A stretch of 32,497 nt of DNA from positions 1 through 32,497 of the forward strand of contig CANPDS010000002.1 of assembly GCA_947573015.1 (NCBI GenBank). Direction: 5' to 3'. Under the pieces are notes generated by a model. It searched no databases and had not been told where the DNA came from. It worked only from the letters and a program-made list of their open reading frames with translations. This stretch comes from an uncultured Muribaculum sp. Its GTDB lineage: Bacteria; Bacteroidota; Bacteroidia; Bacteroidales; Muribaculaceae. This document shows, in pieces, positions 6,808 to 20,452 of this stretch. Made by a program: the position numbers and the translations under genes. Numbering within the stretch: position 1 is the first letter of the stretch; every line of letters begins with the position of its first letter.

Positions 6808-6850
6808 AATGGGATGTGTCAAACTTTTTTTTGCACATCCCATTATTTTT
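6808..6850 (+). terminator. Intrinsic terminator after the sulfatase
   Basis: AATGGGATGTG (6808-6818)/CACATCCCATT (6834-6844) followed by ATTTTTT. Confidence 0.85.
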
Positions 6851-6941
6851 TACTCCCTTATGCCTTTTCTTGATTACCTTTGTAAAGATTTCCAAACCTC
6901 CAAACGTCAAAAGCCTTTTTGCTTAAATTTTAATATCCACA

Positions 6942-6969
6942 TTAGGGTATGGCATGCAGTCATGCGTCA
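6942..6969 (+). promoter_or_regulatory. Candidate ECF-type promoter, copy 2 (upstream of ECF sigma gene)
   Basis: TTAGGGTAT-GGCATGCAGTC-ATGCGTCA. Confidence 0.65.
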
Positions 6970-7027
6970 CAAATAAAAACCTACTTTCCTCTCCTGCATA
7001 AAAACGCCACCTTATTCATCTCATTCC

Positions 7028-7579
7028 ATGGCAATCGACGATAATGAACTCCTACGTCTGATACAACGTGGCGATACAGTTGCGCTGGGGATGCTTTACG
7101 TGCGGTATTCAGCCCGTGTGAAAGCATTCGCCATGGGCTTTGTCCATAACGGGATAGATGCCGACGATATAACACACGATGTATTCTTCAATCTTTGGCA
7201 ACAACGAGAGTCAATCAATGACATAGCCTCATTAAAGGCATATTTATTCCGGATGACACGCAACGCAATTTTCTCTATATATCGCCACCGCCACATAGCC
7301 GATGCGTATCTCGCCAAAATGAAAGAGAATGTCCAGGAGGCTTCAAACGAAACCGAGGACAAAATCGCCACCGCCGATCTACTTGAATTGGTAAACCTCA
7401 TCATAAACGACATGCCGGAGCAGCGCCGCAGAATCTTCACAATGAACCGATTTGACAACAAGACATATGATGAAATCGCGACTGAACTTGGCATAAGCCG
7501 CAAAACCGTGGAATATCACATCAGTCAAGCCCTAATACAGCTCAGAAAAATCAACCGCCTGATGCTGTTTTTCATCTGA
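7028..7579 (+). CDS. RNA polymerase ECF sigma-70 factor
   Basis: 183 aa; DDITHDVFFNLWQQRESI region 2 and YDEIATELGISRKTVEYHISQALIQLRK region 4. Confidence 0.95.
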   Translation: MAIDDNELLRLIQRGDTVALGMLYVRYSARVKAFAMGFVHNGIDADDITHDVFFNLWQQRESINDIASLKAYLFRMTRNAIFSIYRHRHIADAYLAKMKENVQEASNETEDKIATADLLELVNLIINDMPEQRRRIFTMNRFDNKTYDEIATELGISRKTVEYHISQALIQLRKINRLMLFFI

Positions 7580-7625
7580 CAGTTGCCATTTAACCAAAAA
7601 TTCTCGAAAAAATTCAACTTCCTGT

Positions 7626-7653
7626 TTAGGGTATAATCCAACTCTATGCGTCA
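7626..7653 (+). promoter_or_regulatory. Candidate ECF-type promoter, copy 3 (upstream of BACON/FecR/SusCD operon)
   Basis: TTAGGGTAT-AATCCAACTCT-ATGCGTCA, same spacing as copy 2. Confidence 0.65.
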
Positions 7654-7731: not shown

Positions 7732-8088
7732 ATGAAAACGCTGACCAAAGGGCTCCTCTCTCTACTGTGCCTCACAGCAATGACGGCATGCAGTGAAGAT
7801 GATCCGGCACCCGGACCAGACAGCATGCACCTCTACACTACCGAGGCCACCGTCGATGCCGATGCCGGAGAGCAAGCCGTGACTCTTTTCACCAACCGAA
7901 GCTGGACAGTGTCACCTCAGAACGACTGGGTCACTGCAACCCCATCATCTGGCACTGACAAAGGCATCTATGAAGTGACACTCTCCTACACCGCCAATCC
8001 CGATCCAACACCACGCTCATGCGAGGTAATTTTCGCCGGAGGCACATATAAAGTCACTTACACACTCACACAAAAAGCGCGTCAATAA
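7732..8088 (+). CDS. Small lipoprotein with single BACON-like domain
   Basis: Lipobox MTACSEDD; NRSWTVSPQNDWVTATPSSGTDKGIYEVTLSYTANPDPTPRSCEVIF fits the BACON pattern. Confidence 0.75.
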   Translation: MKTLTKGLLSLLCLTAMTACSEDDPAPGPDSMHLYTTEATVDADAGEQAVTLFTNRSWTVSPQNDWVTATPSSGTDKGIYEVTLSYTANPDPTPRSCEVIFAGGTYKVTYTLTQKARQ

Positions 8089-8107: not shown

Positions 8108-9124
8108 ATGTCACTTCACCTGACTGAATGCCGAAAAATAATTGAAGGCGTCTTCTGCCGTCCGGATCTGCCCGAAGAATTGCGACACAAATTCTCCGAA
8201 TGGATGCTGGCACACGAAAATGACCATACGCTACAGCAGGTGATGCTTGAAATGTGGGCCAATCTACACGACGACCCATCAGAAGTGTCATCCGACGGGC
8301 TGCACAGGCTGCTCAACGATATTAAATTGCTCGAAGGCAATTCAAGCAAAGCGTCAAGGCATGGCAGAATCGCACGTTACTGTGCGGCTGCGGCAATAAC
8401 AGCGGTCATGTTCACTGCCGGATGGCTGGCATCCGGAGCATGGTTCGGGAATGACAATACAGAGCCAACCACCATTTTAGTTACCGCCCCTGGATCAACA
8501 GGACATCACATTCTCCCCGACGGCACCGAAGTGTGGCTCAACTCCGAAAGCAAGCTATGCTATACAGGCAATCTGGATGGTGCCATACGTCAAGTGAGCC
8601 TCAAAGGCGAAGCCTACTTCGATGTTGCACAAAACAAAGTCAGCCCATTTCAGGTTGTGATGGATAGTCTGCAAGTCGAAGTCACAGGCACCGCATTCGA
8701 TGCCATAAACTATCCATTCGCACCCGAACAGGTTGCGCTACAGAGGGGCAGTGTAAATGTGACAGGCAAGAGCAGCGGAATGGCTGTGACCCTCAGTCCC
8801 GACCAGATTGTGACCCGCAGACGTGGGACCTCTGAAATATCAGTAGGAAGCGCCGATTGCGACAACTACTGTGGATGGATGGCCCGACGTATCACGTTTG
8901 ACAACCGCCGCCTTTACGACATCCTGACAATCCTCGAACGCCGATATGCCGTAAGCATCACAGTCGGCCCACATGTCGACCTCGAGAAACGCCTGTCGCT
9001 CACCATCGGAGGAGAGACATTTGATGAAACGACACGTCTGATCGAGCGTCTTGTACCTATCAGATTCGAGACAAGCGGCAATACCGTCACTGTTACAATC
9101 TGCCGGCGCAATGCACGCTCATGA
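8108..9124 (+). CDS. FecR-family anti-sigma factor
   Basis: Single TM around residues 88-110, then LPDGTEVWLNSESKLCYTGNLDGAIRQVSLKGEAYFDVAQNKVSPFQV FecR motif. Confidence 0.95.
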   Translation: MSLHLTECRKIIEGVFCRPDLPEELRHKFSEWMLAHENDHTLQQVMLEMWANLHDDPSEVSSDGLHRLLNDIKLLEGNSSKASRHGRIARYCAAAAITAVMFTAGWLASGAWFGNDNTEPTTILVTAPGSTGHHILPDGTEVWLNSESKLCYTGNLDGAIRQVSLKGEAYFDVAQNKVSPFQVVMDSLQVEVTGTAFDAINYPFAPEQVALQRGSVNVTGKSSGMAVTLSPDQIVTRRRGTSEISVGSADCDNYCGWMARRITFDNRRLYDILTILERRYAVSITVGPHVDLEKRLSLTIGGETFDETTRLIERLVPIRFETSGNTVTVTICRRNARS

Positions 9125-9200: not shown

Positions 9201-12200
9201 ATGACAGCAAATAGCGTAATGAGAAGCATTATGCGGCACTCTTTGCCAACTATACTTCTCTGTGCTGCCTCGGTACCGGCGTTCGCCGCCACTGCCCCGA
9301 CGGTAAGCATCGACGTAAAAAACGTCACCGTAAAAGAGCTGCTCCACACCATCGAAGCCAACAGCAACTACACGTTTGCCTATGCCGACGATGATATCAG
9401 CTCTACCAAACGAATCACACTCAAGGCCGACGACCGGTCGATCGCCTCGATCGTCGCCGAAGTGCTCCCCGGCGCAAAAATCGATGTAGAGGGAAATAAA
9501 ATTATTATTACACGCAGTAATAATAACGCCGCGCAGCAGCCTGACAAGGCAGCCGCACGGCGCAAGGTGTCGGGCACTGTGCTCGACGAAGCCGGCGAAC
9601 CCGTAATTGGCGCCACAGTGAAAGTCAAGGGCACCAACGAAGCGGTTGCCACAGACTTTGATGGAAACTTCACGCTCAACGTTGCCTCGACACGCCCAAC
9701 AATCATTGTATCATATGTTGGCTACAGCTCTTCAGAGAAGCAACTCAATGCCAACCAGAACAATATCAAATTTACCATCGAACCGCAGGCGACAATGCTC
9801 GACGATGTGGTCGTAGTGGGTTATGGTGTGCAGAACAAACGCGACGTCACCACCTCTATCGCCTCAATTAAAGCCGAAGACTTCGCAAAGACCCCAACCG
9901 CAGATTTCCGCGACGCCATGGCAGCAAAAATGCCAGGTGTACAGGTGCTCTCACTCGGCGGTCAGCCTGACGGCAATGTGTCAATACGTATCCGTGGTAT
10001 ACAGTCGGCAACATCCGGCAACGACCCACTTTACGTAATCGACGGCGTAACTACTGATGCACGTGCTTTCGCCAATATCGAGAGCTCCGACATCGAGAGC
10101 CTTGAGGTGCTTAAGGATGCATCTGCAGCAGCCATCTACGGTTCTCGTGGTTCATGCGGTGTCGTTATTGTAACAACTAAACGCGGTAAAGGCTCAAAAC
10201 CAACTATTTCTTATGATGGACAAGTCGGTTGGTCAACAGTAAGCAAAAAGATGGATATGCTTGATGCCTACGAATTTGCACAAATGTTCAAGGAAGCACG
10301 CGACGGTGCCTATCTGAGCCAGACTCCAGGTGCAAGCATCAACGATCCTTACGATTTACGTCCATCGAGCTACCAGCGTGTCAACCCTATCATTTCCGCA
10401 TATCTTGAGGATAAGACCGGCCGACTCACTAACACAGACTGGCAGGACGAGATATTCCGCACGGCACTCTCAACCAAACACTCGCTAAGCGTTTCAGGCA
10501 AGACCCCAGATGTACGTTACTATGTAGGAGGCAGCTACCTATACCGCGAAGGTACCATCATCGGCAGCGACTTTGAGCGATTCAGCGCACGTGCAAATGT
10601 CGATGGCACACGCGGCAAGTTCAAGTATGGCATCAGCTTCTCCCCCTCCTATTCCGAGACAAATTATGTTAATTCAGATGCCCAGTACAATTCTGATGGT
10701 GTAATCGCATGTGCACTCCAAAGCGCACCGATCTTCCCGGTATACAACAGCGACGGCAGCTACAATCAGGATATGAATGGCTTGCTACGTCTTGACCCAT
10801 GGGACACTCAGCTCAACGTATGTATGAACCCCGTACTGCTTGCCAACGAGATTGATGATAAACGCAATAAGATCAACCTCATGGGTAACATCTACGCCGG
10901 TTACGAATTCATCAAGGGTCTTGAGTATAAACTCACTGTTGGTGGCGATTTTTATAGCTATACCAGAGATTATTACCGCCCAAGTTATATTGAAAAAAAT
11001 GGAATGGCAAACCATGGTAATCTCTCAGCCCCAAACGCACGGCATTGGGATCAAAGCTATTTTCACTGGACACTATCTAATCAAGTGATGTTCAACCGCA
11101 CATTTGGTGAACACAGCATTAATGCTGTGGCAGCATATGAAGCCGAAAAGCAAACGGTTCGCACAGCTCAGATATATGCTATCGGAACTCCAGGCGATGA
11201 CAAGATCCGCACTACCAAGGGCAAAACCATTGATCAGGATAATACGCTCGACAACCGCTACAGCTATACATTTGCCTCATGGCTTGTACGTGCACAATAC
11301 TCCTACAAAGGCCGTTATATGCTGTCTGCATCAATACGTGGTGACGGTAGTTCACGTTTCGCACCCAACACACGCTGGGGCTACTTCCCGGCAGCATCAA
11401 TCGGGTGGCGCATGAGCGATGAGAGATTCCTCCGCGATGTAACATGGCTCAATGATCTCAAGATCCGTGCATCAGTAGGTCAGACAGGTAACGCACAGAT
11501 CGGCAACTCGGCATATCTTGCCCTATACGGCGCTACTACTGCAGATCTTGGAGCGGGACTACAACAAACCATATATCCGACACAAATAGCTAATAACGAT
11601 CTCGGTTGGGAGAAAAACACCCAATGGAACGGCGGTATAGATTTTAACATATTCAACGGATATCTCCGAATGTCCGCCGACTTATATTATTCCAAGACCA
11701 CAAATATGATTTTTGATGTGCCTGTCAGCCAAGTTTCAGGCTTACAGACATCTACTATCAACATTGGCTCCATGGAAAACAAGGGTATCGAACTCCAACT
11801 GGCATCTGACCACCGTTTTGGAGATTTCACATACTCATTCAATGCCAACTGGTCGCTCAACCGCAATAAGGTGCTGTCACTTGGCGATGAGAATGCCGAT
11901 ATTATCAAGGAATCAAGCTATGCCGGTGGTTATTATATAACACGTGTAGGACAACCTGTAGGATGTTACTATCTTCTAATTCAAGATGGTATATTCCATA
12001 ACCAGCAGGAGCTGAATCAGTATCCACACTTTGAGACCAGTGAGGTCGGAGACTTCCGTTTTGTTGATGTCAATGGCAACGGTATTATCGAGAAAGATGC
12101 TGACCGCGCTATTGTCGGCAACTATCAGCCCGACTTCTACTATGGATTCGGTCTTACCCTCGGCTACAAAGGCTTCGATCTCGCCGCCAACTTCCAGGGT

Positions 12201-12620
12201 GTATATGGCAACGAGATCCTCAACCTCGAACGCCGTTACCTGCTCAACATGGAGGGATCATCCAATATGATGAAGGAGGCTCTGCAACGCTTCCCCTACG
12301 GCGAGCTAAACAAAGCCACACGTAAATCTACAGGTAATGATGGAGCCTGTACTTCCACATTCCATATAGAGGACGGATCATATCTGCGCCTGCAAAACCT
12401 TTCGCTTGGTTATACCGTACCCAAGGCATGGCTAAAACGTATGGGTATCACCAATCTGCGTCTCTATGTACAGGGCACCAACCTCTTTACATGGACAAAA
12501 TATACTGGCTACAACCCCGAAGTCAACAAGCGCTCCGACGATGCACTGCGTCCAGGTGAGGACTACTGCTCATATCCTCTGGCGCGCACATTCACCTTCG
12601 GTCTCAATTTCAGCCTATAA
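9201..12620 (+). CDS. SusC/RagA-family TonB-linked outer membrane protein with STN domain
   Basis: STN domain (VSIDVKNVTVKELLHTIEANSNYTFAY), CarboxypepD_reg-like domain (VSGTVLDEAGEPVIGATVKVKGT), plug (VVVGYGVQNKRDVTTSI), C-terminal FTFGLNFSL. Confidence 0.97.
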   Translation: MTANSVMRSIMRHSLPTILLCAASVPAFAATAPTVSIDVKNVTVKELLHTIEANSNYTFAYADDDISSTKRITLKADDRSIASIVAEVLPGAKIDVEGNKIIITRSNNNAAQQPDKAAARRKVSGTVLDEAGEPVIGATVKVKGTNEAVATDFDGNFTLNVASTRPTIIVSYVGYSSSEKQLNANQNNIKFTIEPQATMLDDVVVVGYGVQNKRDVTTSIASIKAEDFAKTPTADFRDAMAAKMPGVQVLSLGGQPDGNVSIRIRGIQSATSGNDPLYVIDGVTTDARAFANIESSDIESLEVLKDASAAAIYGSRGSCGVVIVTTKRGKGSKPTISYDGQVGWSTVSKKMDMLDAYEFAQMFKEARDGAYLSQTPGASINDPYDLRPSSYQRVNPIISAYLEDKTGRLTNTDWQDEIFRTALSTKHSLSVSGKTPDVRYYVGGSYLYREGTIIGSDFERFSARANVDGTRGKFKYGISFSPSYSETNYVNSDAQYNSDGVIACALQSAPIFPVYNSDGSYNQDMNGLLRLDPWDTQLNVCMNPVLLANEIDDKRNKINLMGNIYAGYEFIKGLEYKLTVGGDFYSYTRDYYRPSYIEKNGMANHGNLSAPNARHWDQSYFHWTLSNQVMFNRTFGEHSINAVAAYEAEKQTVRTAQIYAIGTPGDDKIRTTKGKTIDQDNTLDNRYSYTFASWLVRAQYSYKGRYMLSASIRGDGSSRFAPNTRWGYFPAASIGWRMSDERFLRDVTWLNDLKIRASVGQTGNAQIGNSAYLALYGATTADLGAGLQQTIYPTQIANNDLGWEKNTQWNGGIDFNIFNGYLRMSADLYYSKTTNMIFDVPVSQVSGLQTSTINIGSMENKGIELQLASDHRFGDFTYSFNANWSLNRNKVLSLGDENADIIKESSYAGGYYITRVGQPVGCYYLLIQDGIFHNQQELNQYPHFETSEVGDFRFVDVNGNGIIEKDADRAIVGNYQPDFYYGFGLTLGYKGFDLAANFQGVYGNEILNLERRYLLNMEGSSNMMKEALQRFPYGELNKATRKSTGNDGACTSTFHIEDGSYLRLQNLSLGYTVPKAWLKRMGITNLRLYVQGTNLFTWTKYTGYNPEVNKRSDDALRPGEDYCSYPLARTFTFGLNFSL

Positions 12621-12643: not shown

Positions 12644-14044
12644 TTGATACTTAAGATGAAATTCAAATATATCAAACTCGCCGGATCCCTACTCTGTGCC
12701 GCGACACTAACCGCATGTGGTGACGCCTTTTTTGAGCAGTATCCTGCTAATAATATCACAGAAGGTAATTTTTACCAAAATGATGACGATTTCAATCAAG
12801 CCGTTCGCTGCTGTTATGCAAAATTAAAAACACAAAGTGCTTATTTCATTACAGAGCTTGGCTACCGTTCCGATGAAAGTACTCTTCTTGCCATGGCAAC
12901 GTCAACCCAAGACAGGTATGACATTGACCACTTTCAGGATGTTCCGTCAAATGGTATCCTCAACGATATATGGAATGCCTGGTATAATGCAATCTATAGA
13001 TGCAATGATGTACTTGATCATATTGCAGGCAAGAATAATCTCCAAAATTACAATCAATATCGAGGAGAAGCCTTATTTCTCCGTGCATGGAATTATTTCA
13101 ATCTTTACCGGGCATTCGGTGGAGTTCCTATTACACGTGTAGTTGTAAGTCCCGAAAAGGCCAAAACTATAGCACGTTGCTCAGATGAAGATATGTTCAA
13201 TTTATTAGTTGAGGATCTTACTGAAGCGGCATCATTACTTCCTGACAAACCTGGATCCGAAAAAGCACGTGTAGCCAATATTGCAGCCTGGACTCTTCTC
13301 GCAAAAGTATACCTTACTTTTAAGAAACCTGCAGAGGCCAAGAAAGCTCTTGACGAAGCGATGAAAAACAGTAATTATGGCTTGATGTCTTCCACCGAAG
13401 AAGCGTTTGATGTAACCAAGAAGTTCAACAAAGAGATGATTTTTGTTCTTCATTACGAAAAAACCAATGGTGAGGGGCATGGATACTGGTATTCTCAAAA
13501 GACAAACGTACTTGCTGAAATAAACTCACCTACACCATCTTTGCGTGCTATTTACTCAGATGAGGATAATCGTCGGCCATTAATAGCAGAATATGTAAAA
13601 CAAGGTTCCGTTTATGTACTCAAAAAGTATCTTGATCAATTTGATGCCACATATACAACACAAGTTGGCAATGATTTCCCATACTTGCGTTATGCTGATA
13701 TCATTTTAATGTATGCTGAAGCCCTAGCCGACACTTCAATAGCTGATGCGCTGACATGGCTTAACAAAACTCGCACACGTGCCGGACTTGCAGAACTTAC
13801 GACTGCCGAGATCTCATCACGCGACCAGTTTATACGCGCCCTTGCCGATGAACGCGCACGCGAATTCGCTCTTGAAGGACAACGTTGGTTCGACCTCGTG
13901 CGCCTCGGCCTCGCTATCGAGACAATGCGTGCAGAAGGCTTCACCCTCGACGAACACAATCTCCTCTTCGCCATCCCGCAAAACCAGATTGAGATTGTCA
14001 ACAATTCATCAATTCTCTGGCAAAACCCGGGATATAACTCTTAA
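12644..14044 (+). CDS. SusD/RagB-family nutrient-binding lipoprotein
   Basis: Signal peptide with LTACGDAFFEQYP; GEALFLRAWNYFNLYRAFGGVPI; DERAREFALEGQRWFDLVRLG; C-terminal NPGY. Confidence 0.97.
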   Translation: MILKMKFKYIKLAGSLLCAATLTACGDAFFEQYPANNITEGNFYQNDDDFNQAVRCCYAKLKTQSAYFITELGYRSDESTLLAMATSTQDRYDIDHFQDVPSNGILNDIWNAWYNAIYRCNDVLDHIAGKNNLQNYNQYRGEALFLRAWNYFNLYRAFGGVPITRVVVSPEKAKTIARCSDEDMFNLLVEDLTEAASLLPDKPGSEKARVANIAAWTLLAKVYLTFKKPAEAKKALDEAMKNSNYGLMSSTEEAFDVTKKFNKEMIFVLHYEKTNGEGHGYWYSQKTNVLAEINSPTPSLRAIYSDEDNRRPLIAEYVKQGSVYVLKKYLDQFDATYTTQVGNDFPYLRYADIILMYAEALADTSIADALTWLNKTRTRAGLAELTTAEISSRDQFIRALADERAREFALEGQRWFDLVRLGLAIETMRAEGFTLDEHNLLFAIPQNQIEIVNNSSILWQNPGYNS

Positions 14045-14059
14045 TAATCTGAACTCCCA

Positions 14060-16078
14060 ATGAAAAAGTTAATCAATATATTGATGCTCGGGGCTATGCT
14101 CGTGAGCTTCACCGGATGCTGGGACGACGAAGTTATCGATGCCGGCGCAGCACGTCCGCAGGTAGAGAACCTGAAAGCAGTGCCCGGCGACGAGGAGGCT
14201 GTCGTGACCTGGACCATGCCCGACGGATGGAATCCAACCGATTTCATCATAACATACTCGACACCCGAATCAGAAAAAGTATCTTTCCGTACGGGCAAAC
14301 TTGGCGAATACACCTATACAATCGGTCAACTTGTCAATGATTACCAATACTCATTCGACATACAGGCCGTATATGGCGAACTTATATCAGGCGCCGTGAC
14401 AGCCATAGCAAAACCATCCACATCTCGATTCCCGGTGACAGATCTCAGCGCAAATGGAGATAATGCAAGTGTAACTCTGACATGGACCCGTCCGTCGATG
14501 CTTGTCACTGGCTACACACTCACATACTTCCAGGATCCCACACCTGCCGATGTGAAGACAATGGATATAGCCGCTGATGCAGAGACTGTGACCGTGACCG
14601 GCCTTACCAATGACATAAGCCATACATTCAGTCTGGTGGCCAACTACACTCGCGGAGCATCCGACCCCGCTACTGTAAAAGCACTCCCGACTCTTGCTAT
14701 ACCTTACTTCGTCGATAAGACTGAGACAGCAATCGGACTCCCCGTCCACTTCTCATTCAACCGAGCCGACTATACCGATGCTGCCGACGTCACATGGACA
14801 TTCCCAGGAAATATAGTCAAGAAAGGCGATGAAGTCGACTATGCATTCACATCACAAGGCACACAGACTGTGGAACTATCGATACTCTCCGGTGTCAACA
14901 AGCGCACCTGGACTATCGAAATTCAGGTTCGCGAATATGCACTGTGGTACAGCGAGTGGGTCATGGACGGCACAACATTCAATGGCTTCAAAGGCTCATG
15001 TCCCGTATTCTCTCCTGACGGATCTACCGTATACGACATCACATTCAGCAAGATCACATCGCTCTATGCATTCGATGTGGCTTCCGGAAATTTGAAATGG
15101 GTATTCACTCCGACCGCCAAATCGGCAAGTTACAATATGCTTACCGTAAATCCGGTCAATGGCGACATATATTTCGGCACCACATCCGCCGGACAGTTCT
15201 ATTGCGTAAGTGCGGAAGGAGAACAACGATGGATGTTTACCGAAGCTCAGTCAATGCAATCGGCCGCACCGGCTGTAAATGCGACCGGTACGGTGGTATA
15301 TCTCGGCGACAAATCAGGCAACGTATTCGCACTCGATGCAGCTACCGGCACCAAGAAATGGGGCGGCAGTCTCGGCAACTCATGCACTGCAATTCTTGTC
15401 AACGGCAACGAAGTGGTGATGGGATCCACCGACAAAGGCATATTCTTCCTTGATTCGGAAACCGGAGCAGAAATTGCAAAAATCACTTTGTCTACAAAAA
15501 TATCCGATATTACCGGATTTGCTGTAGCCGCTGACAAACGCACAGTATACGTTCCTCAAAACAGCGGATGCATGTCGAAGATCGATATTATAGATCACAA
15601 GGTGCTTATCGACAGCAAGGTCAACTCAAATGCCTCACCAAATACCATGTACGAACCCATTGTGGCTCCTAATGGTGATGTGTTTGTAGGAAGCAAAGAT
15701 AGCTATGTGTATTGCTTCGACAGCGATCTCAACGAAAAGTGGAACTACAAAGTCCTCGACAAAGCCAATGCATTCAACTACTCACATCCATGCGTCGACA
15801 CTGAAGGCAACTTCTATATCACATCGGGGCAGGAACTCAACCACTGTCTCGGTTTCAGTCCGACTGGTGCGGTCATACTCGACCAGTCATTCGGCAGCAA
15901 TGGAACGGCACAAAAGCAAATGGGCGGAAACAACCTGCTCAACGGCGTGCTTTACAGTGCGTTTGTAGGTGCGAGCGGAGAAAACGGACTCTTCGTCGGT
16001 ATCGGTGTAGGTTATGACCGTGCCTCAAGCTGGTCAACCCACGGCGGTGATCCATGCGGCTCATGCTGTATCAAATAA
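14060..16078 (+). CDS. Surface lipoprotein with FN3-like repeats, PKD-like domain and PQQ-type beta-propeller
   Basis: Lipobox FTGCWDDE; FN3-like repeats (VTWTMPDGWNPTDFIITYS, LTWTRPSMLVTGYTLTYF); GNLKWVF, GEQRWMF, GTKKWGG, LNEKWNY propeller blades. Confidence 0.8.
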   Translation: MKKLINILMLGAMLVSFTGCWDDEVIDAGAARPQVENLKAVPGDEEAVVTWTMPDGWNPTDFIITYSTPESEKVSFRTGKLGEYTYTIGQLVNDYQYSFDIQAVYGELISGAVTAIAKPSTSRFPVTDLSANGDNASVTLTWTRPSMLVTGYTLTYFQDPTPADVKTMDIAADAETVTVTGLTNDISHTFSLVANYTRGASDPATVKALPTLAIPYFVDKTETAIGLPVHFSFNRADYTDAADVTWTFPGNIVKKGDEVDYAFTSQGTQTVELSILSGVNKRTWTIEIQVREYALWYSEWVMDGTTFNGFKGSCPVFSPDGSTVYDITFSKITSLYAFDVASGNLKWVFTPTAKSASYNMLTVNPVNGDIYFGTTSAGQFYCVSAEGEQRWMFTEAQSMQSAAPAVNATGTVVYLGDKSGNVFALDAATGTKKWGGSLGNSCTAILVNGNEVVMGSTDKGIFFLDSETGAEIAKITLSTKISDITGFAVAADKRTVYVPQNSGCMSKIDIIDHKVLIDSKVNSNASPNTMYEPIVAPNGDVFVGSKDSYVYCFDSDLNEKWNYKVLDKANAFNYSHPCVDTEGNFYITSGQELNHCLGFSPTGAVILDQSFGSNGTAQKQMGGNNLLNGVLYSAFVGASGENGLFVGIGVGYDRASSWSTHGGDPCGSCCIK

Positions 16079-16093
16079 TTTAACAATCATATA

Positions 16094-16135
16094 GCAGAGA
16101 GCCGGATTTTCACTCCCCGGAAGCCGGCCCTCTGC
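16094..16135 (+). promoter_or_regulatory. Intra-operon hairpin between the two propeller lipoprotein genes
   Basis: GCAGAGAGCCGG (16094-16105)/CCGGCCCTCTGC (16124-16135), one mismatch, no T-tract. Confidence 0.5.
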
Positions 16136-16155
16136 TCATCCAATAAATCAATGCT

Positions 16156-17844
16156 ATGTATATCAATAAAAAAATGTTGATTCCCCATATCATCGTTGGA
16201 GCATGTCTGGCAATGTCGGTATCAGCGTGCAGCGATGACGATGATACAAATGTCAATGATATAATTGACCGTCCGACAAAAACCACCCTAAACCTCAACA
16301 GATATTATGATGAGTCCGGAGCAATAAAACAATTCAAATGGACAGATGAGGATATGGCCATTCTTACCGTGCCTTCCACCGGCTATAAAGCCCAAGCCTC
16401 TCCGATACAACCGGGACTCTCATCCTCTCTCTTCCTATTTACTGTAAAAGCTCCTGCTCAGGCAACCGTAGTGAGCTACTATCCTACCGATGCCCCTGTG
16501 ACTGTAGGTAGCGGTAAAGTGAATCTCGAAATTCCAGCAATACAAGACGGCAAGATTTCTCCCCTACTCCTCGGCCACGATTGCAAAGTGCTCTCTTCGT
16601 ATGAGGGTTGCACTATCGACCTAAAGCATTTCCCGGCTACGCTGATGGTAAATATCGCCCGTGGCAACCATTATATCAAGAGCGTGGAGGTACGCGCAAA
16701 TGGCGGCGAGAATATCGCCGGCAAAATTACCATAGATGCAGACACATGGAGCATAAACGCATCAGAGGCGACCGCACGTGTCGATCTACCATCTCCACTT
16801 GATTGCACTCTAAATCCTGGGACGGTAGCTGTACAACTTGCTCCAATATATCTTTCGCAAGGATACAGCGTGACGGTAACCGATACTAACGGCCATACTA
16901 TCGGCACATCGACCGATGCTCCGCTGGAACTCACCTCGGCAACAGTCTTCACTACCGACAATGCCGCAGACAACGAACCAATGCGCATCATAGCCTGCGG
17001 AACCAACAAGGTGCATGTGATCGATGCCGGAGCGGCTATCGGCGGTGCATATACCAACGGACTACTCTGGACATGGGACGCCAAAACAGCGGCATCAGAT
17101 ATTGGACTTGCCGAATCACGTTGTGACCATATCGACGATTGCAAGCCTGTTGATGGAGGAAGTAAGTTCTTGATTACAAGTTCCTACAACTGGTGCGTGC
17201 TTCTCGACCGCGAGACAAAGAAGGTGCTGTTCTCAGCCAATCAGTGTTCCAACGCACACTCTGCAGAACTGCTTCCAGGCAACCGCATTGCTGTAGCATG
17301 CAGCGAAGGGACATCCACTACCCACAATCAGGTACAGATATATGACATCTCGAAACCCAATTCCATTCTCTTCAGCACGCCACTCACCTCTGGTCACGGA
17401 GTAGTATGGAGCAACGATACTCAACGTCTGTATGCCATGGGAGGACAATCATTGAATGTATACAGCCTTGTCGACTGGGATACAGCCTCTCCTAAACTGA
17501 AACTGGAGAAAAGCATCACCACTCCTCAAAGCGGCACTCATGATCTTACAATGGCCGATGCCACGACCCTTGTAGTAGCCGGCAAGAAAGCATATCTATT
17601 TGATATCTACTCGGAAAAATTCACAGAAATGACCCATTTCTCTGCATGTACAGCATTGAAATCGGTCAACTACAATCCCCTCACATCCGAGCTTTGGTAC
17701 ACCGATGCCACCGTGCCCGAAGGTACACAAAGCTGGTCGACTCATACCCTCCGTTATGCAACCGACATAGCTGCATCCTCAATGGCCGGCTCAATCAGCA
17801 TTACCGACATGGATGTATACAAAGTGCGTGTACTCAATTGGTAA
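16156..17844 (+). CDS. Lipoprotein with C-terminal beta-propeller (DUF6528-like)
   Basis: Lipobox SACSDDDD; C-terminal half MRIIACGTNKVHVIDAGA...LLWTWDAK...LITSSYNWCVLLDRETKKVLFS resembles DUF6528 propellers; family named from memory. Confidence 0.65.
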   Translation: MYINKKMLIPHIIVGACLAMSVSACSDDDDTNVNDIIDRPTKTTLNLNRYYDESGAIKQFKWTDEDMAILTVPSTGYKAQASPIQPGLSSSLFLFTVKAPAQATVVSYYPTDAPVTVGSGKVNLEIPAIQDGKISPLLLGHDCKVLSSYEGCTIDLKHFPATLMVNIARGNHYIKSVEVRANGGENIAGKITIDADTWSINASEATARVDLPSPLDCTLNPGTVAVQLAPIYLSQGYSVTVTDTNGHTIGTSTDAPLELTSATVFTTDNAADNEPMRIIACGTNKVHVIDAGAAIGGAYTNGLLWTWDAKTAASDIGLAESRCDHIDDCKPVDGGSKFLITSSYNWCVLLDRETKKVLFSANQCSNAHSAELLPGNRIAVACSEGTSTTHNQVQIYDISKPNSILFSTPLTSGHGVVWSNDTQRLYAMGGQSLNVYSLVDWDTASPKLKLEKSITTPQSGTHDLTMADATTLVVAGKKAYLFDIYSEKFTEMTHFSACTALKSVNYNPLTSELWYTDATVPEGTQSWSTHTLRYATDIAASSMAGSISITDMDVYKVRVLNW

Positions 17845-17968: not shown

Positions 17969-18011
17969 AAACCTCACCTCGGCGATTAGCGTTCCCTCCG
18001 GGGTGAGGTTT
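17969..18011 (+). terminator. 3' hairpin, probable terminator
   Basis: AAACCTCACC (17969-17978)/GGTGAGGTTT (18002-18011). A second weaker inverted repeat AACTATTCA (17895-17903)/TGAATAGTT (17928-17936) lies upstream. Confidence 0.5.
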
Positions 18012-18122
18012 CATTATAAATGAGCGTCAGAATTTGCAATGGCCAAAACACATTCAATTTCTGCTAATCTCAACCCAATCATTAACCTGCATAACCAATC
18101 AAAAAAATACCCTCACAACATC

Positions 18123-19025
18123 ATGAAAAAAGCAATACTTGCAATTTCATCATTGATTCTGGCATTTTCTGCCATGGCCGGCGGAAACCGTGCTGCCGAT
18201 ATCATCAAAGAGATCAACAATCCCGCATCAAAGAAAGTGCTTGTAGCATGCCACCGTGGCGACTGGCGCAACTATCCTGAAAACTCGCTCAAAGCCATGG
18301 AAAGCGTAATCAAGATGGGTGCCGACATTGTAGAGATCGACCTCGCATTGACCAGCGACAGTGTACTCGTAGTGTGCCACGACCGCACAATCGACCGCAC
18401 CACAACAGGCAAAGGTCTTATTGCAGACATCACATACGATTCGATACAGCGCGTCAATCTGCGTCGCGCACATGGTGCAGCCACACGTCTGAAGATGCCG
18501 ACACTCCGCGAGGCCCTCGAACTTTGCAAGGACCGCATCGTGATCAACATCGACAAAGGCTACGAATATTACGACATGATTCTTCCTATCTCCGACTCTC
18601 TCGGCATGACCGAGCAGCTCCTCATCAAAGGAAAGAAGCCGGTAAAGTCTGTCGAAAAGAAAATGGCACAGCATAAGCACAACATGATGTACATGCCTAT
18701 CATCGATATCCAGAAACCGAAGGGAGAGAAGCTCTTCAAGGAGTATCTGTCGACCAACACCATACCTCTGGCCTACGAAGTGTGCTGGGATAAGATGGCA
18801 CCAGAAGTAACCGACTGCTTCAAGGCTATCGTCAACCAACCTTCAAAACTTTGGGTCAACACTCTCTGGGAGAGCCTCAATGGTGGCCTGGAAGATGACT
18901 TGGCATTCGACGGCAATCCCGACGACGTATATGGTGTCCTCATCGATATGGGTGCTACCATGATCCAGACCGACCGCCCTGAGTTCCTGCTCAACTACCT
19001 GCGCTCACGTAAACTCCACGATTAA
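18123..19025 (+). CDS. Glycerophosphodiester phosphodiesterase family protein, secreted
   Basis: VACHRGDWRNYPENSLKAMESVIKMGADIVEIDLALTSDSVLVVCHDRTIDRTTTGKG. Start set to ATG 18123 because MKKAILAISSLILAFSAMAGG is a signal peptide; ORF track starts at 18039. Confidence 0.93.
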   Translation: MKKAILAISSLILAFSAMAGGNRAADIIKEINNPASKKVLVACHRGDWRNYPENSLKAMESVIKMGADIVEIDLALTSDSVLVVCHDRTIDRTTTGKGLIADITYDSIQRVNLRRAHGAATRLKMPTLREALELCKDRIVINIDKGYEYYDMILPISDSLGMTEQLLIKGKKPVKSVEKKMAQHKHNMMYMPIIDIQKPKGEKLFKEYLSTNTIPLAYEVCWDKMAPEVTDCFKAIVNQPSKLWVNTLWESLNGGLEDDLAFDGNPDDVYGVLIDMGATMIQTDRPEFLLNYLRSRKLHD

Positions 19026-20452
19026 TGCCTACTGACACTGTAACCGCAGGAGCACGCAGCTCCTCCTCGATATTTTCACGGATAGCATCATTCTATGCTA
19101 TCAGTCCAAACGCTCCGGAACGCGATTTCGCTACCGACGATGAACGCGCCCGCTTCTACAAAAAACTGAAGCTTCAAGCCTTCTTCGCAGCGACACTCGG
19201 CTATAGTCTGTACTATGTATGCCGCACATCGCTCAACGTGATGAAAAAACCCATCATCGACAGCGGAGTGCTTGATGCCACACAGCTCGGTATAATCAGT
19301 TCCGCCCTGCTGTTTGCATACGCTATCGGCAAGTTTGTCAATGGATTCGTTGCCGACTACTGCAACATCAAGCGCTTCATGGCCACCGGTCTCATCATCT
19401 CCGCACTTGCCAACGCCTTTATGGGAATGATGGGTATCGCATCAGCCGCTATTCCGGCGTCTGTCATGTGCATATGCTTCGCTGTCATGTGGTGTTTCAA
19501 CGGTTGGGCCCAGTCAATGGGAGCCCCCCCTGCCATCATCAGTCTGTCGCGCTGGTTTCCGCTGAAAGAGCGTGGTACATATTATGGATTCTTCTCCGCA
19601 AGTCATAACCTCGGCGAGTTCTTCTCTTTCCTTTTCGTCGGCTCAATCGTGGCCGTCGCCGGATGGCAGTCAGGATTTTTCGGTTCGGCCATCGCAGGTG
19701 CCATAGGCATAGCCCTCGTAGTATTCTTCCTTCACGACCATCCCCGCGCCCACGGCCTGCCTGCCGTAGAAGCAATGGCCGGTGAGAAAACAAGCAAAGC
19801 CGACAAGATGTCGACACGCGACATTCAGAAGATGGTGCTCCGCACTCCTGCAGTATGGGTACTCGCGGCAGCAAGTGCATTCATGTACATATCGCGCTAC
19901 GCAATCAACGGCTGGGGCATGCTTTTCCTTCAGGAACAGAAAGGATTTACCGACGTTGAAGCTCTGTCGATCATTTCTATCAACGCCCTGCTCGGCATCG
20001 CCGGCACAGTTCTGTCAGGATGGTTCTCCGACAAACTTTTCAAAGGCGACCGCCAGATTCCCGCACTTATTTTCGGTATGCTCAACGCAGCCGCCCTTGC
20101 TCTCTTCCTCTTCGGTGGTAACGCAATGTGGGTAAACATTCTGGCAATGGTGCTGTTCGGCATCGCTATCGGAGTGCTCATCTGCTTCCTTGGCGGCCTC
20201 ATGGCAATCGATATTGTTCCGAGACGAGCCACAGGTGCCGCTCTGGGTGTAGTAGGTATCGCATCCTATGTCGCCGCAGGCATTCAGGATGTGGTGTCCG
20301 GATGGCTTATCAACAGCCACATCACCACAGTCGATGGTGTAAACCATTACAACTTTCTCCCCGTAGCCATTTTCTGGCTGGGAGCTTCCATAATATCATT
20401 CCTTCTGCCATTGCTCAATGCACGTCGTAAAGTGCAGCAGGACGAGGAATAA
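19025..20452 (+). CDS. MFS transporter, GlpT/UhpT-like
   Basis: 475 aa; GYSLYYVCRTSLNVMKKP; ATG overlaps the GDPD stop (TAATG), consistent with translational coupling. Confidence 0.9.
   Translation: MPTDTVTAGARSSSSIFSRIASFYAISPNAPERDFATDDERARFYKKLKLQAFFAATLGYSLYYVCRTSLNVMKKPIIDSGVLDATQLGIISSALLFAYAIGKFVNGFVADYCNIKRFMATGLIISALANAFMGMMGIASAAIPASVMCICFAVMWCFNGWAQSMGAPPAIISLSRWFPLKERGTYYGFFSASHNLGEFFSFLFVGSIVAVAGWQSGFFGSAIAGAIGIALVVFFLHDHPRAHGLPAVEAMAGEKTSKADKMSTRDIQKMVLRTPAVWVLAAASAFMYISRYAINGWGMLFLQEQKGFTDVEALSIISINALLGIAGTVLSGWFSDKLFKGDRQIPALIFGMLNAAALALFLFGGNAMWVNILAMVLFGIAIGVLICFLGGLMAIDIVPRRATGAALGVVGIASYVAAGIQDVVSGWLINSHITTVDGVNHYNFLPVAIFWLGASIISFLLPLLNARRKVQQDEE

Follow-up and report, generated by a model that had tools for sequence, protein, structure and literature searches.

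A two-box motif as the predicted promoter of a FecI-like ECF sigma factor and its uptake operon in Muribaculum

Which promoters does the ECF sigma factor of a Muribaculum uptake locus read, and is that of its own gene among them? Gut Bacteroidota carry dozens of ECF sigma factors each, many of them inside uptake loci, and we know of almost none with an identified DNA target. We analysed a stretch of 32,497 nt (the window; contig C2 of genome G000, in a genus represented by 14 genomes) in which the motif TTAGGGTAT-N11-ATGCGTCA occurs twice on the forward strand, at 6942-6969 before the sigma gene and at 7626-7653 before an operon that opens with a BACON-domain gene. The half-sites are identical in the two copies and the 11-nt spacers are equal in length and unlike in sequence, exactly as the preliminary description had stated, and a match to the motif was seen in 0 of 100 dinucleotide shuffles of the window. 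The distance from motif to start codon, given there as 62-82 nt, had to be corrected: from the end of GCGTCA we measured 58 nt to the ATG of the sigma gene (7028) and 78 nt to that of the BACON gene (7732). A shuffle test for gapped blocks shared by the two intergenic spacers, in which 2 of 2000 shuffles reached 17 matches, is insensitive because of A-runs, and we therefore relied on genome-wide counts.

The first copy is made up of TTAGGGTAT as a predicted -35 (6942-6950), the 11-nt spacer and ATGCGTCA as a predicted -10 (6962-6969); in the second copy the same elements lie at 7626-7634 and 7646-7653. Reduced to TTAGGGTA-N14-GCGTC, the motif has the layout of a -35 and a -10 with a fixed spacer and a -10 of the CGT(C) type, and all four sites found at this locus in two species conform to it. 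We consider it very probable that the two copies are promoter elements for an RNA polymerase holoenzyme containing the ECF sigma encoded at 7028-7579, which would activate its own gene from the first (P1) and the uptake operon from the second (P2).

The gene content reported earlier for the locus (ECF sigma, BACON, FecR, SusC and SusD) agrees with the profile matches, all on the forward strand. The sigma factor (183 aa, 7028-7579) matches Pfam Sigma70_r2 and r4_2 and scores 160.5 bits against TIGR02985, for which the cut-off is 126.4; it has sigma70 regions 2 and 4 only, which places it in the FecI-like family, and in the alignment its region 4.2 helix is SRKTVEYH (residues 157-164). The BACON-domain lipoprotein (7732-8088) is the first gene of the P2 operon and is followed by a FecR-type sigma regulator (anti- or pro-sigma, 8108-9124), with FecR and FecR_C matches above cut-off. 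Next comes a SusC/RagA TonB-dependent transporter (9201-12620), so that the regulator and the transporter of a FecI/FecR/FecA-type system are present; its match to the STN signalling domain, on residues 31-66, is weak (E 1.5e-4, below Pfam's cut-off). A SusD-like lipoprotein (12644-14044) completes the SusC/SusD pair expected of a polysaccharide utilization locus. The two genes at 14060-17844, encoding an fn3/PQQ-propeller protein (14060-16078) and a DUF6528 protein (16156-17844), are probably co-transcribed with each other and the operon, as their close spacing suggests.

If the motif is the target of this sigma, it should be found where the sigma is found. The only close ortholog that we detected is in a second Muribaculum genome, G012 (L033, NZ_JAIDKI010000154.1), at 72% identity; the BACON and FecR orthologs there are 76% and 58% identical. 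Both sites are retained in G012 before the same two genes, as TTAGGGTA-N14-GCGTCA before the sigma gene and TTAGGGTA-N14-GCGTCC before the BACON gene. Written out, they are TTAGGGTA-taccccttgctcgg-GCGTC and TTAGGGTA-agccctcggactgt-GCGTC, and the intergenic spacers in which they lie are mostly unconserved. The alignment of the two sigma leaders is near-random except for the two boxes and the start-codon region, while the BACON leaders share the boxes, a ACATATGT block just 3' of them and the start-codon region. The 5' neighbourhood is not the same in the two species: the sulfatase and sigma genes of G012 are separated by a GH85 gene and a further SusC gene. As a separate observation, more than 25 near-identical copies of TTAGCGCATAGCCCCTTTGGGGGCGTC lie on both strands in G012 (for example, in C5, C15, C97 and C243) and form a dispersed palindromic repeat; palindromic TTAGCGCATAGCCCC repeats in this genome are likewise dispersed and were rejected as sigma sites.

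The preliminary description had named many unrelated copies as evidence against its reading, and the counts show no such excess. Among 399 Muribaculaceae genomes, the exact core TTAGGGTA-N13-TGCGTC gave five matches, four in G000 and one in G012; these are exactly the two genomes with a close ortholog of the sigma, and the other 397 have none. The reversed core, used as a control on the same 399 genomes, gave about 11 scattered matches. With one base fewer fixed, the core has exactly two exact sites in G012, both at the sigma locus, and none in G011 or G036. Occurrence of the core is thus tied to the cognate sigma, as expected of an ECF promoter, on the evidence of the two genomes that bear the ortholog.

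Related sigma factors offer a second comparison. The helix reads GISRKTVEYH in both orthologs of the window type and DISP[KR]TVQYH in their nearest relatives (Muribaculum and G036; 46-54% identical). For the C247-type sigma, common to G004 and G012, the FecR leader contains a conserved TTAGCATA-N13-GCGTCTTGGATAAACAAAAC, and in G011, whose operon is the same as that of the window (SusC 71%), CTAGCATA-N13-GTGTC precedes the BACON gene. A search of 12 genomes for YTAGCATA-N13-GYGTC returned only the FecR-leader sites of G004 and G012, the BACON site of G011 and one more in G004 (L142, G004:C1:885592-885617), 52 nt before the start of a sulfatase gene. The G012 sulfatase, 98% identical to that of G004, retains TTAGCATA-N13-TAGTCATATATAA (L092, reverse strand 5407), and these two sites are probably distant members of the regulon of the sister sigma. 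No TTAGCATA-type site lies just upstream of the window's own sulfatase gene (87-88% identical). The third sigma type, with helix SHKTVQYH, is accompanied in the G004 operon by TTAGCATA-N13-TTGTC; the stricter form predicted for the C44-type sigma, TTAG..TA-N13/14-G[C/T]GTC, was missed there by one base, and the prediction held only in part. The background is low: TTAGCATA-N13-GCGTC has 15 matches in the 399 genomes, three of which are the sister-sigma sites already described.

In these comparisons the -35 core changes from GG to CA together with the helix, and the -10 stays near GYGTC; with few sigma types compared, the pattern is suggestive. It could reflect a specificity code in the FecI-like sigmas of Muribaculum, a proposal to which we give slightly less than an even chance, whereby the helix would set two bases of the -35, the -10 would remain roughly constant as G[C/T]GTC and the spacer would differ by one base. 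The residues concerned would then be S-R-K-T-V-E-Y-H versus S-P/H-K/R-T-V-Q-Y-H (R158 and E162 in the window sigma), and the corresponding -35 elements TTAGGGTA and TTAGCATA, though we hold this assignment as tentatively as the code. Were such a code real, the regulons of uptake loci would be predictable from the sigma sequence alone.

The proposal with which we started, that the sigma controls both itself and the uptake operon, is supported by conservation in a second species, by occurrence that follows the ortholog and by the co-variation of -35 and helix. The last two observations are hard to reconcile with the view that a distinct DNA-binding regulator (a repressor, an AraC-type protein or a hybrid two-component system) uses the repeat as its operator and controls both units. 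Loci of this type often carry regulators of these kinds (PMC3878776), and half-sites about two helical turns apart could fit a dimer; however, the half-sites are not palindromes and do not repeat one another directly, their layout is that of a -35 followed by GCGTC, and the proteins scanned near the sites included no further recognisable regulator. We regard an operator of this kind as very unlikely.

It must also be asked whether the sites are indeed ECF promoters but are read chiefly by a different ECF sigma encoded in the genome, or by several. There are 14 TIGR02985-like matches in G000, and the motif itself extends beyond the window. A search of G000 allowing up to three mismatches found two perfect sites, one with a single mismatch (in C60), one with two mismatches (in C99) and nine background matches with three. 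The C60 site (L014, 2660-2687) falls within the coding sequence of a DUF6377 protein, 517 nt 5' of the next gene, and is probably a chance match, though a match of such a kind is rarer than expected. The C99 site (L015, 3542-3569), in contrast, is an intergenic TTAGGGTA-N14-GCGTC, 44 nt before the start codon of an FAD-dependent oxidoreductase gene, in a locus with an ECF sigma and FecR of its own; the C99 sigma is 23% identical to that of the window. The site is plausible as a distant target of the window sigma, and cross-regulation between the two uptake loci is possible. It is absent from the orthologous intergenic position in G012 and G004. A TTAGGGTG-N14-ACGTC before the FAD gene in those two genomes was treated as chance, because it lies in the last part of the coding sequence that precedes the gene and does not align with the G000 site.

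The FecR promoter of the C99 type likewise has a GCGTC -10, which speaks for this alternative. Its -35 is different, however: the C99-type FecR leader carries a conserved promoter-like ACCTATAGATTC...GCGTC in three species (L015 704-845, L105 3155-3311, L106 8397-8548). Furthermore, G004 possesses C99-type and C44-type sigmas, yet has no match to the TTAGGGTA core. Another sigma as the principal reader of P1 and P2, or several sigmas sharing them, therefore seems very improbable to us, and we retain the sigma of the locus itself as the predicted one. The C99-type sigma gene keeps a TAnnTTTG box, and this type shares its -10 with the window type, has a different -35 and is probably not autoregulated. 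None of the other FecI-FecR groups that we surveyed has a GCGTC box, so that this -10 is not universal and the survey does not support GCGTC as a rule for FecI-FecR groups at large.

Finally, we dismiss as highly improbable the view that the motif arose twice by recent duplication within the locus, or belongs to the leader of the transcript, and has no promoter role, the units being driven by housekeeping promoters. In its favour, a possible housekeeping box (TACCTTTG) lies 5' of the sigma gene, and the leaders are conserved at ACATATGT and around the start codon as well. Against it, the flanks and spacers of the two window copies are unrelated, the spacer 5' of the BACON gene has no TAnnTTTG, a third copy is found on a different contig, at 44 nt from the start codon that follows it, and the same pair persists in a second species.

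The TACCTTTG box (6875-6882, forward strand) matches the -7 box TAnnTTTG of housekeeping sigma-ABfr promoters, whose consensus is TTTG / TAnnTTTG (PMC7366714); the paired motif, by comparison, has no such -7 box. The pattern is short and occurs 28 times in the window, where 17.8 occurrences are expected, so that the match is weak taken alone; the box is a possible basal promoter of the sigma gene. Autoregulation would then supplement basal transcription. We looked for a motif paired between sigma leader and downstream leader at the loci of other sigmas and found one only in the window and G012, so that among the loci tested autoregulation is not a general trait. The sister sigmas have no conserved counterpart of P1, and promoters of the TAnnTTTG type are seen for several of them instead. 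Autoregulation thus seems to characterise the window type, superimposed on the possible TACCTTTG promoter.

A mechanism can be proposed by analogy with FecA/FecR/FecI. Substrate bound at the SusC-type transporter would send a signal, by way of the STN domain, through FecR, which would release or activate the sigma. RNA polymerase with this sigma would recognise TTAGGGTA as -35, 14 nt from the -10 core GCGTC, and transcribe the sigma gene from P1, closing a positive feedback loop, and BACON-FecR-SusC-SusD-PQQ/fn3-DUF6528 from P2; levels of the sigma itself, the transporter and FecR would rise. A circuit that activates itself and has FecR in the operon under its control suggests that uptake is induced in the manner of a switch.

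The locus resembles the E. coli fec system in its FecI-like ECF sigma, FecR and TonB-dependent transporter (here with a weak STN match) and in the predicted control of the transporter promoter, as at fecA. It differs in that the sigma gene has its own predicted copy of the promoter and FecR lies in the target operon, whereas in E. coli fecIR lacks autoregulation and depends on sigma70 for its transcription (PMC9249621). Since a copy of the predicted promoter stands before the sigma gene and is conserved in G012, we describe the system as fec-like in its working and do not assign it to the fec subtype. The ECF sigma/FecR polysaccharide utilization loci of Bacteroides also combine sigma, FecR and SusC/SusD, with the sigma controlling the uptake operon (PMC3878776, PMC12596196); what sets the present locus apart is a defined motif of two boxes that is supported across species. 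Ravcheev et al. 2013 made no predictions for ECF promoters (PMC3878776), Ryan et al. 2020 reported that no recognition motif was known for any ECF of B. thetaiotaomicron (PMC7366714), and BtModulome proposed a motif for one, SigW-1, that was non-significant (PMC12596196). The SM6 promoters of Flavobacterium psychrophilum carry at -10 a CGT box that is ascribed to ECF sigmas, which favours our reading of GCGTC, and one ECF/anti-sigma unit is among their targets (PMC9723704). The SM6 targets, however, are Type IX secretion genes and not an uptake locus, and we found no TTAGGGTA or TTAGCATA -35 described for them (PMC9723704). We found no paper on ECF sigma promoters in Muribaculum. The kind of element is known, and the motif and its pairing with an ECF sigma of the polysaccharide-locus type were not found in the literature searched. 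A motif paired with its sigma, together with a sister sigma that differs in helix and -35, opens the way to direct tests of sigma specificity, to prediction of distant targets and to the design of orthogonal promoters.

The surrounding genes bear on what the operon might take up. No glycoside hydrolases or lyases were seen among the window proteins scanned; present instead, around the SusC/SusD operon at 1-25594, are two GDPD genes, MFS transporters (one GlpT-like) and HAD, radical SAM/SPASM and sulfatase-family genes. This set suggests uptake of glycerophosphodiester or phosphoglycerol compounds rather than of a plain polysaccharide, and our guess, prompted by the GDPD and GlpT-like genes, is that the substrate would be a compound bearing one of these groups. 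On the 5' side of the sigma gene lie MFS transporter, HAD, GDPD, radical SAM/SPASM and sulfatase-family genes, followed by an inverted repeat, GGGATGTG...CACATCCC, with a T-rich run (6809-6855, forward strand, read directly from the sequence), a probable terminator of the upstream sulfatase unit. On the 3' side, a terminator-like hairpin, aacctcacc...ggtgaggttt (17970-18011), lies between the DUF6528 gene and those for a GDPD/DUF4996 phosphodiesterase and a GlpT-like MFS transporter (18039-20452, forward strand, by profile matches). Because the hairpin precedes them, these two genes may form a separate unit with a promoter of their own; the same GDPD and GlpT-like pair also adjoins the related sigma in G036.
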